Below are positions 57,658 through 61,251 of a DNA stretch of 64,000 nt, piece after piece (position 1 is the first letter of the stretch; each line of letters opens with the position of its first letter). The DNA is from Arenicellaceae bacterium (lineage in GTDB: Bacteria > Pseudomonadota > Gammaproteobacteria > Arenicellales > Arenicellaceae): assembly GCA_029246505.1 (NCBI GenBank), contig JAQWNC010000012.1, forward strand, positions 1 to 64,000, given 5' to 3'. Both the position numbers and the translations under genes were made by a program. Below the pieces are notes generated by a model that was not told the DNA's origin, did not search any database, and saw nothing but the letters and a program-made list of their open reading frames with translations.

Positions 57658-58914
57658 CTAGTCAGGAAGCAAACTTTCTCCGGCAACCATATCGTTGATA
57701 GTTTCGTGTTGTCTGGTAACAATCCATTGATCATCATCAACAATAACTTCGGCTGCGCGACCGAGGGTATTGTAGTTTGAGCTCATCACTGCGCTATATG
57801 CACCGGCAGATCGAATCGCTATCAAGTCATCTGCGGCAATTGCTAGCTTTCTATCTGAGCCCAGCACATCACCGGTTTCGCAAATTGGGCCCACCACATC
57901 GTATAACGCAGCAGGCCTAGTCTCGGCTGTCTGTAACGGCAGTATTTCGTGCCAGGCCTGATATAACGCCGGGCGTAGCAAAGTGTTCATGCCGGCATCA
58001 ACAATAGCGAAGTTCTTTTCGCGGTTATGCTTTAAGTATTCAACGTTGCTTAACAATATCCCGGCATTACCGGAAATCGCGCGTCCCGGTTCAATATTGA
58101 TTTGAACTTCCCATTTATGGCGTTTTAGAATTTTGCAGATTGCGGCTGCATATTCCGCGGGTGAGGGTGGTTGTTCATCTTGGTAGCGAATTCCTAAGCC
58201 ACCACCCAAATCCAATTCATGAATTTGAATACCTTGCGTTGACAAATCGTCCAGTAGAGTTAGAACTTTCTCCAACGCATCAACGAAGGGGCCTATTTCT
58301 GTAATCTGCGAGCCGATGTGGCAAGCAATGCCTTCTGAGCTCACATGTTGTAAGGATTGGATCAGTTGATAAGTTTCAAGCGCCTCATCGAATTGAATAC
58401 CAAATTTTGCTTGATTGAGGCCCGTGGCAATGTATGGGTGAGTTTTGGCATCTACGTCCGGGTTTACTCTTACCGATACAGGTGCAACGCAGTTAAGTCT
58501 GGTTGCAACTTTGTTTACACGTTCCAGTTCAGCAGTGGATTCAATGTTTATACAGCGTATACCAACTTCTAGGGCGCGGGCGATTTCGTGTTCTTTTTTG
58601 GCTACACCTGAATAGATTGTTTTTTCCGGATCGCCACCAGCGAGTATTACTCGTTCCAGTTCGCCGACAGAGACAATATCGAAACCTGACCCTAACCTTG
58701 CGAGCAAGTTTAATACGCCAAGGTTGGCATTAGATTTAACGGCATAGCATACCAAGTGGCGCATCTCTGAAAAGGCTGAGTCAAATGCGTGCCAATGACG
58801 CTCAAGTGTCGCCCGCGAATAAACGTAGCATGGTGTACCAACTTGGCGAGCCAGATCAGCTAGCTTAACGTTTTCAGCGTATAGCTGGCCGTCTCGGTAT
58901 TCGAAATGGTCCAT
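57658..58914 (-). CDS. lysA: Diaminopimelate decarboxylase
   Basis: A 418-residue PLP enzyme making lysine from meso-diaminopimelate. The PLP lysine is in CYAVKSNANLGVLNLLARLGSG (Lys about 60), with HIGSQITEIGPF, DLGGGLGIRYQDE, and EPGRAISGNAG. The C-terminal domain ends in CETGDVLGSDRKLA and related blocks. The lptM-like lipoprotein gene precedes it by 37 bases, the same order as in other gammaproteobacteria (lptM-lysA), although dapF is not next here. Confidence 0.96.
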   Translation of the reverse strand: MDHFEYRDGQLYAENVKLADLARQVGTPCYVYSRATLERHWHAFDSAFSEMRHLVCYAVKSNANLGVLNLLARLGSGFDIVSVGELERVILAGGDPEKTIYSGVAKKEHEIARALEVGIRCINIESTAELERVNKVATRLNCVAPVSVRVNPDVDAKTHPYIATGLNQAKFGIQFDEALETYQLIQSLQHVSSEGIACHIGSQITEIGPFVDALEKVLTLLDDLSTQGIQIHELDLGGGLGIRYQDEQPPSPAEYAAAICKILKRHKWEVQINIEPGRAISGNAGILLSNVEYLKHNREKNFAIVDAGMNTLLRPALYQAWHEILPLQTAETRPAALYDVVGPICETGDVLGSDRKLAIAADDLIAIRSAGAYSAVMSSNYNTLGRAAEVIVDDDQWIVTRQHETINDMVAGESLLPD

Positions 58915-58951: not shown

Positions 58952-59818
58952 CTAGTTCGCAGCTTCCGGAGGTGAATCTTGAGCTGTAGCTGCTTCTTCC
59001 GCAGCTACGGAACAAGCCTCCAGAAAAGCCTTAGCTGCTGTTTCGGTAGCTTCAGGTACTTCAGACGCTTCTTCCGCAGCTGTTTCGGTAGCTTCAGACG
59101 CTTCTTCCGCAGCTGCGGAACAAGCCTCCAGAAAAGCCTTAGCTGCTGTTTCGGTAGCTTCAGACGCTGTTTTCGCTGCAGCTAATGCTTTTTTAGACGC
59201 TTCTGCCGCAGCTGCGGCTTCTTCTGCCGCAATAAACACCTCAAAGGTTGTAGTGGCGGCATCTGCTGCCGCTGCTGCATTTCTGGCGATCTCAGCAGCC
59301 GCTGCTACTTTGTTCGCCTCAGCAAGCGTGGCCTTAGCTTCGGCTGCATCAGCTTCGTGAACATAAGCGGCTGCTTTAACGGCATTTTCAGCTGCTACTT
59401 GTGAAGCTCGAGCGGCATCTACAATAGCGCGTTGTGCGGCTTCAATAGAGCCAGACGCTTCTCTAGCTTCGTCAGCTGCATCTTCGGCTTCTCGAGAGGC
59501 ATTTCTAGCTTCATTAGCAGCCAGATTAGCATCTGGGAAGGTCTTGGCTGCGTTTGCACGATCTGCTGCAGCACTCGAAGTGACAGCAGCAGCTAAGGCC
59601 CTATCAGCTGCCTCTTGTGTGACGGCAGCTTCGTTCTCATCTGCCGTTAACACATAAGCTTTAGCAAGTTTAGCGGAGGCAACAGCGGAGACAGCTGCAT
59701 CTCGAGCCTCAATTTTTGCTACCTTAATTGGGGCCAAAAATATGGGTCCCTTCTGACCACAGGCTGCTAGGCCTAGCGTAAGTGAGCCAACTAAGGCGTA
59801 GATGAGCAAGTTTTTCAT
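58952..59818 (-). CDS. LptM-like lipoprotein with a long alanine-rich tail
   Basis: A 288-residue lipoprotein. The signal peptide ends at the lipobox LAAC (Cys20), and the mature start GQKGPIFLAP is that of LptM/YifL, a small lipoprotein that helps the LPS translocon LptD mature. LptM is usually only 50-70 residues, but here about 250 residues follow, almost all Ala with Glu, Asp, Lys and Ser, predicted as a long helix or coiled coil. A 36-residue duplicated segment occurs near the end, with cysteines in LEACS. The ATG at 59818 is chosen because it gives the lipobox; an upstream start adds 15 residues. The tail's role is unknown. Confidence 0.78.
   Translation of the reverse strand: MKNLLIYALVGSLTLGLAACGQKGPIFLAPIKVAKIEARDAAVSAVASAKLAKAYVLTADENEAAVTQEAADRALAAAVTSSAAADRANAAKTFPDANLAANEARNASREAEDAADEAREASGSIEAAQRAIVDAARASQVAAENAVKAAAYVHEADAAEAKATLAEANKVAAAAEIARNAAAAADAATTTFEVFIAAEEAAAAAEASKKALAAAKTASEATETAAKAFLEACSAAAEEASEATETAAEEASEVPEATETAAKAFLEACSVAAEEAATAQDSPPEAAN
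58992..59167. repeat. Tandem duplication inside the LptM-like tail
   Basis: A stretch of about 68 bases starting at 58992 recurs at 59100, a shift of exactly 108 bases (36 codons), with only a few differences. It is an in-frame duplication in the coding sequence, encoding two copies of ATETAAKAFLEACS(A/V)AAEEA. Further weaker alanine repeats fill the tail. Confidence 0.85.
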
Positions 59819-59862: not shown

Positions 59863-61251
59863 TTAGGCCGGTTCGGCGATCATTTTTTCAGCCTCAACTA
59901 GGGCATCTAGTACACGTTTTGGTGCAGTTCCGCCGATGTGCGATCGTGCGTTTACAGATCCTTCCAACGTCATCGAGTCAAACACGTCTTGCTCAATAAC
60001 CGGTGAGAACTTCTGTAGCTGAGTTAATGAAAGCTCTGTTAAATCACAAGATTGTTCCATCGCACTGGTGACGGCTTTGCCAACGACTTCGTGTGCATCG
60101 CGGAACGGTACATGTTTACGAACCAGGTAATCAGCGAGATCAGTTGCCGTAGCGTAGCCTTTGGCAGCAGCCTCGCGTGTACGTTCTTGATCAAATTTTA
60201 TTTCAGGTACCATTACCGCAAATACTGCCAGCGATTGAGTGATTGTGTCGGTAATAGAGAAAACCGGAATTTTATCTTCCTGATTATCTCGATTATAAGC
60301 AAGCGGCTGGCCTTTCATTAGCACAAGTAATGAAACAAGGTGCCCAATAACACTGCCACTTTTGCCGCGAACCAGCTCTGCAATGTCTGGATTTTTCTTT
60401 TGTGGCATTATGCTCGACCCTGTACAAAATGCGTCGCCAATTTCAATAAACTTGTAACTTTCGGACGCCCAAAGCACCAGTTCTTCACTAAAACGTGACA
60501 GATGCATAGCGATCAAGCTACATGCATTCGCATATTCGATCACAAAGTCGCGATCAGATACTGAATCAATAGAGTTTCGAGTTGGTCGAGTAAAGCCAAG
60601 CCGTTTCGCACAAAATTCACGATCAATTGGGAAACTTGTACCTGCTAGTGCTGCAGCGCCTAGCGGCATAATATTGATTCTTTTGCGCGCATCAGAAAGC
60701 CGCTCCCGATCACGTTGCAACATTTCGACCCAAGCTAACAAGTGATGCCCTATGGTTATCGGTTGTGCAACTTGCAGGTGGGTGTAGCCCGGCATAACAT
60801 CGGCCGCATGTTGTTTGGCCAATTTTATAATTGTAGCTTGCAAGTCGGTAAGCAGTTTGTCGGTCTTATCGCATACATCGCGTAGATACAAACGTAAATC
60901 GGTAGCGACTTGATCGTTGCGCGATCGCCCAGTATGTAATTTTTTCCCAGCTTCACCTATGCGTTTTGTTAGCTCGGCTTCGATGTTCATATGAACGTCT
61001 TCTAATTGTGAAGACCATTCGAATTCGCCGGCAGCAATTTCTTGATCAATTTCACGCAGCCCATGCTCGATGGAGTTTGCCTCTTCATTGGTGAGCACCG
61101 CGACCTTTTCCAGCATGCGAGCGTGTGCTATGGAACCCTGGATATCGTAGTGACTCAATCGGTGGTCAAAACTGATTGATTCGGTAAAAGCCTCGACCAA
61201 CGTATTGGTATCTTGAAGAAAGCGGCCACCCCATGGTTTTTTAAAAGTCAT
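59863..61251 (-). CDS. argH: Argininosuccinate lyase
   Basis: A 462-residue enzyme of the fumarase superfamily, the last step of arginine synthesis. It has the signature [45 protein letters not shown] and LDSVSDRDF-like [15 protein letters not shown]. The ATG start is certain from length. In many gammaproteobacteria hemC lies close to argH; here the amidase gene at 61536 separates them. Confidence 0.96.

Follow-up and report, generated by a model that had tools for sequence, protein, structure and literature searches.

In Escherichia coli, the lipoprotein LptM (YifL) promotes the disulfide maturation of LptD (PMC10567701). Its first ten mature residues lie at the lateral gate of LptD; the LptDEM structures described or cited in PMC12644819 resolve only residues 20-29 and not the C-terminal part, which is regarded as dynamic, and truncation after residue 43 does not abolish co-purification with the translocon (PMC12644819). 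Because the resolved part spans only residues 20-29 and the residues up to 43 suffice, a large C-terminal addition is tolerable. Among members of the family, the sequence following PF13627 is generally shorter than 70 residues, and the C-termini are poorly conserved outside Enterobacteriaceae (PMC10567701). The literature on alanine-rich periplasmic lipoproteins and on long LptM tails yielded nothing relevant besides these two papers.

The window, the whole 64,000-nt stretch of Arenicellaceae DNA that was analysed, contains an lptM gene with a much longer product. It lies in the order argH-lptM-lysA, with all three genes on the same strand:

59863..61251, minus strand: argH, upstream neighbour of lptM, identified from its own sequence
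58952..59818, minus strand: lptM, encoding a 288-aa lipoprotein with an extended tail (translation; NCBIfam NF047847 match)
59729..59761, minus strand: lipid-anchored Cys20 and the conserved LptM head CGQKGPIFLAP, residues 20-30, the portion of LptM that docks into LptD (equivalent residues are resolved in the LptDEM structures, PMC12644819)
58955..59722, minus strand: Ala/Glu-rich tail, residues 33-288, restricted to one genus
57658..58914, minus strand: lysA, downstream neighbour of lptM, separated from it by a 37-nt gap

The product carries a signal peptide with the lipobox LAAC, and cleavage before the lipid-anchored cysteine leaves a mature chain of 269 residues starting with CGQKGPIFLAP. 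The tail consists of 40% Ala and 14% Glu, with a net charge of -25. The NCBIfam LptM equivalog NF047847 (cut-off 27.7 bits) scores 32.0 bits for the protein and 35.2 bits in the genome search, while the match to PF13627 is borderline, at 25.8 as protein and 28.4 in the genome search against a gathering score of 27.3. Profile searches with PF13627 and NF047847 revealed no second LptM above either cut-off elsewhere in the 2.64-Mb genome. The weaker matches all fell below the cut-offs, and those that were read proved to be an amidohydrolase-like protein, other lipoproteins and the lipobox of LptE. Both species of the genus encode LptD and LptE, and in the window genome the LptD cysteines, at positions 46/53/55, 202 and 752-753 of the open frame, follow the layout of C31, C173, C724 and C725 of E. 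coli LptD (PMC12644819). With an equivalog score over the cut-off, a position before lysA and a single copy accompanied by LptD and LptE, the gene is, as judged from its sequence, the LptM of its genome. The preliminary description had given the reading frame, the mature start and an LptM-like identity at the usual site before lysA. The reading frame and the mature start are confirmed by the translation, and the identity and position are supported by the equivalog score, the single copy, the neighbouring genes and the position of lptM in relatives. It had also envisaged that a short LptM might be encoded elsewhere, leaving this gene an unrelated lipoprotein; such a gene was looked for in the genome and not found over the cut-offs, and since relatives carry their short LptM at the same site before lysA, this objection falls away. 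The protein thus shares with E. coli LptM the lipobox, the CGxKGPxxxxP head and the partner genes lptD and lptE, and with the lptM of relatives the position next to lysA. It differs from E. coli LptM and from PF13627/NF047847 in its mature tail of about 250 residues, where the E. coli protein has a short end, and in the Ala/Glu-rich composition of this tail and its confinement to one genus.

The extent of this difference was assessed among relatives. At 147 lysA-adjacent loci, which are not all independent since many belong to Halomonadaceae, the mature LptM has a median length of 34 residues and a 95th percentile of 55, and reaches 159 once (L126). LptM was found at E 1e-5 or better in 94 of the 109 genomes of the order, and the tail in two of the 109, both of the same genus. 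The tail sequence had no other match in the window genome or in the remaining genomes of the order, and its origin as a copy of another gene was rejected on this basis; a search of the named genomes with the protein itself returned no relatives. The wording of the family description, in which lengths below 70 residues hold "generally", together with two long-tailed proteins (L126 and L194) indicates that long tails are unusual but not unique. Therefore, the approximately 258 residues past the head mark an unusual member of the family without excluding LptM membership, and the window protein is an LptM with a lineage-specific extension.

The first of these long-tailed proteins, from an order-level relative (L126, G067:C206), is a lysA-adjacent LptM with a 159-residue mature chain and a PF13627 score of 29.4 bits; its tail is Glu/Lys-rich and helical, contains repeated xGELTPEELEAVNAEL-like units and has no sequence match to the window tail. 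The second, at class level (L194, G363:C1, near 352260), is an LptM-like lipoprotein of 238 aa in its mature form with SAQ tandem repeats, likely a variable-number run, and no lysA lies beside it in the stretch read. Both tails are apparently expansions separate from that of the window, and their scattered occurrence suggests that the C-terminal site of LptM tolerates additions.

The tail was compared with that of the sister genome G001 (lysA coordinates as in contig JABJKL010000101, SI074_bin90), the only other species of the genus examined. In this genome lptM is split over two contigs, residues 1-162 running to the end of C172 and the remainder opening C79. Where they meet (L020 end and L041 start), the contigs share a 42-nt overlap containing a single mismatch, TAA on C79 instead of GAA; this difference is provisionally attributed either to an error of assembly or to a variant in the population whose tail is truncated. 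The joined sister protein comprises 246 aa against 288 aa in the window and ends with ...SPEASD, the window protein ending with ...PPEAAN. Alignment of the two proteins is gap-free over the following segment; beyond it they diverge, where the window protein has a duplication:

59141..59818, minus strand: residues 1-226, gap-free alignment to the sister species (two-species alignment)

The break between contigs within the sister gene, and the stop codon at one of the contig ends, might point to an artefact of assembly or gene calling. Such an origin of the tail is highly improbable, because the frame is otherwise open through the tails of both genomes and is conserved at the protein level.

The duplication, described previously as an exact one of 36 codons, is real and has a period of 108 nt, but it is near-exact only in a 64-nt core, in which 63 of the 64 positions are identical:

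59100..59163, minus strand: near-exact repeat core, copy 1 (period 108 nt; repeat comparison)
58992..59055, minus strand: near-exact repeat core, copy 2 (repeat comparison)

Identity drops to 85% over 99 nt and to 81% over 108 nt. Exact repetition extends over at most 48 nt, whereas none of 2000 codon-shuffled versions of the tail exceeded 23 nt, which places the duplication far beyond chance. It sits where the lengths of the two species differ, and the change of length through duplication that had been anticipated is thus supported between species.

Between the two species the synonymous sites are saturated (pS 0.70-0.77), while the tail retains 53% identity against 22% in shuffled sequence (maximum 30% of 1000 shuffles). 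Of the 130 tail columns other than Ala/Ala, 39 are identical, and conserved non-Ala motifs include ADENEAAV, RAAAYVxEAD and GxIEAA. Nonsynonymous divergence (pN) reaches 0.295 for the tail, compared with 0.132 for the head and 0.119 for LysA, so that the tail changes about 2.5 times as much as LysA. The gap-free alignment and the identity kept in the tail while synonymous sites are saturated show that the tail is under purifying selection, though more loosely than LysA. This selection could concern composition only and need not reflect a particular partner. The tail could be a tolerated, weakly constrained low-complexity appendage, in which only solubility and a helix-forming composition are selected and where repeats accumulate because LptM ends free in the lumen or periplasm. 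The poor conservation of LptM C-termini outside Enterobacteriaceae (PMC10567701), the unrelated long tails of L126 and L194 and the recent duplication at the C-terminus in the window all agree with such an appendage. However, it would hardly be expected to remain free of indels over 226 residues between species with saturated synonymous sites, or to keep its non-Ala motifs, and we consider this explanation possible but doubtful.

Structure prediction by AlphaFold2 gave mostly helical models for both proteins, run separately. The helices of the window protein are located as follows:

59258..59728, minus strand: predicted helices 31-58, 61-90, 94-120 and 126-187, forming a helical bundle (AlphaFold2; helical pattern in the sequence)

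The window model has a pLDDT of 67.9 and a pTM of 0.51; that of the sister protein, with helices 28-56, 61-90, 94-122 and 126-161, has a pLDDT of 69.2 and a pTM of 0.64. The helix breaks coincide in both, near residues 57-61, 91-94 and 121-125, with Pro94 and Gly123 located at breaks in the window protein. Structural alignment of the sister model found four-helix bundles over residues 22-162 with Z up to 11.8, namely copper-storage, PilJ and pectin methylesterase inhibitor proteins, a likeness that may reflect only the common helical-bundle arrangement. Foldseek returned nothing at E 0.001 or lower for the model of either species, and the tail had no sequence match in Pfam, NCBIfam or PDB that would identify it as a known domain. 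The models are informed by two sequences only, and Ala-rich helices are easily over-predicted; packing of the tail as a four-helix bundle, the same in both species, is thus a prediction of moderate confidence, and the shape past residue 190 is uncertain.

The preliminary description regarded the tail as a rod that could cross the periplasm or bind peptidoglycan. A single long rod that extends to the inner membrane or to peptidoglycan would accord with a prediction of nearly all helix, and at 1.5 A per residue 250 residues in one straight helix would span about 37 nm, but both models interrupt the helix at the same places and pack a bundle, making the rod the less likely shape. Nor did binding to peptidoglycan find support, as the tail contains no Pfam domain, including any known for such binding, and the C-terminal residue is Asn or Asp rather than Lys. 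A rod of this kind is therefore quite improbable.

Lpp and OprI, the alanine-zipper lipoproteins of the outer membrane, resemble the window protein in being Ala-rich and helical, and Lpp attaches to peptidoglycan via its C-terminal Lys. The window protein is several times longer, has no C-terminal Lys and is predicted to form its bundle within one chain. It might nevertheless act now mainly as a structural envelope lipoprotein of this type, with the LptM head serving only as an anchor and sorting signal. Matches of the tail to itself peak at offsets 7 and 14, an Ala-rich heptad-like spacing that would suit such a role, and no match to Lpp (PF04728) was found in any of the 21 genomes of the family, including that of the window. 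However, relatives with a short LptM are also without Lpp, so there is nothing being replaced, and the tail as a substitute for Lpp is rejected because none of the family genomes has Lpp. The missing Lys, the conservation of the head at a rate like that of LysA and the retention of the LptD cysteines likewise argue against a mainly structural function, which is unlikely.

Since the head is conserved, a role in LptD maturation is the likeliest. By analogy with E. coli, the lipid-anchored head would insert at the lateral gate of LptD and favour correct disulfide formation. The tail would be too big for the partly plugged lumen of LptD and would leave the barrel, folding on the periplasmic side as an acidic, Ala-packed helical module beside the LptD beta-taco. 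There it could serve the translocon as a fused accessory that steadies the beta-taco or keeps other proteins away, and its C-terminal end, as the least constrained part, would grow via tandem duplication. We favour this arrangement, in which a functional LptM head sits at the LptD gate above a lineage-specific periplasmic helical module, and judge its chances to be about even. The tail might work in a manner comparable to LptY (YedD), an accessory of the LPS translocon at the beta-taco (PMC12644819). LptY is an eight-stranded beta-barrel resembling lipocalins, and no homology to the tail is claimed. A more far-reaching and tentative proposal is that the tail, as an Ala-rich helical bundle anchored at the LptD gate through LptM, has been fused to the LPS translocon as a new accessory domain that in this genus holds or regulates the beta-taco or the LptA bridge, and that comparable fusions arose separately in other Gammaproteobacteria. 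A genus with a large, conserved and possibly folded C-terminal part of LptM offers a natural way to learn in which direction this C-terminus extends and which partners it contacts.

Among the long open frames of the class survey, most reflected upstream read-through and were rejected as long tails. Two loci of genus g29 (L127 and L129, in G084 and G083) encode an LptM-like head joined to a conserved domain of about 100 residues that contains Cys; in place of lysA, they are convergent with a gene for an S41-type protease, as identified by eye. Two proteins from metagenome-assembled genomes, one of them labelled Deltaproteobacteria (L109 and L110), comprise 315 aa in the mature form, carry the LptM-like head CGKKGNPVPV and are encoded 4 nt before lysA; the remainder of the chain is long and beta-rich-looking (fibronectin-like by eye). 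Contigs G000:C5 and G000:C12 (L004 and L005) terminate in an identical 141-nt sequence that lies within the gene of a small lipoprotein (MLSKAIFISS...LAACGNESTT), and this common end probably marks a junction of the assembly graph at a repeat.
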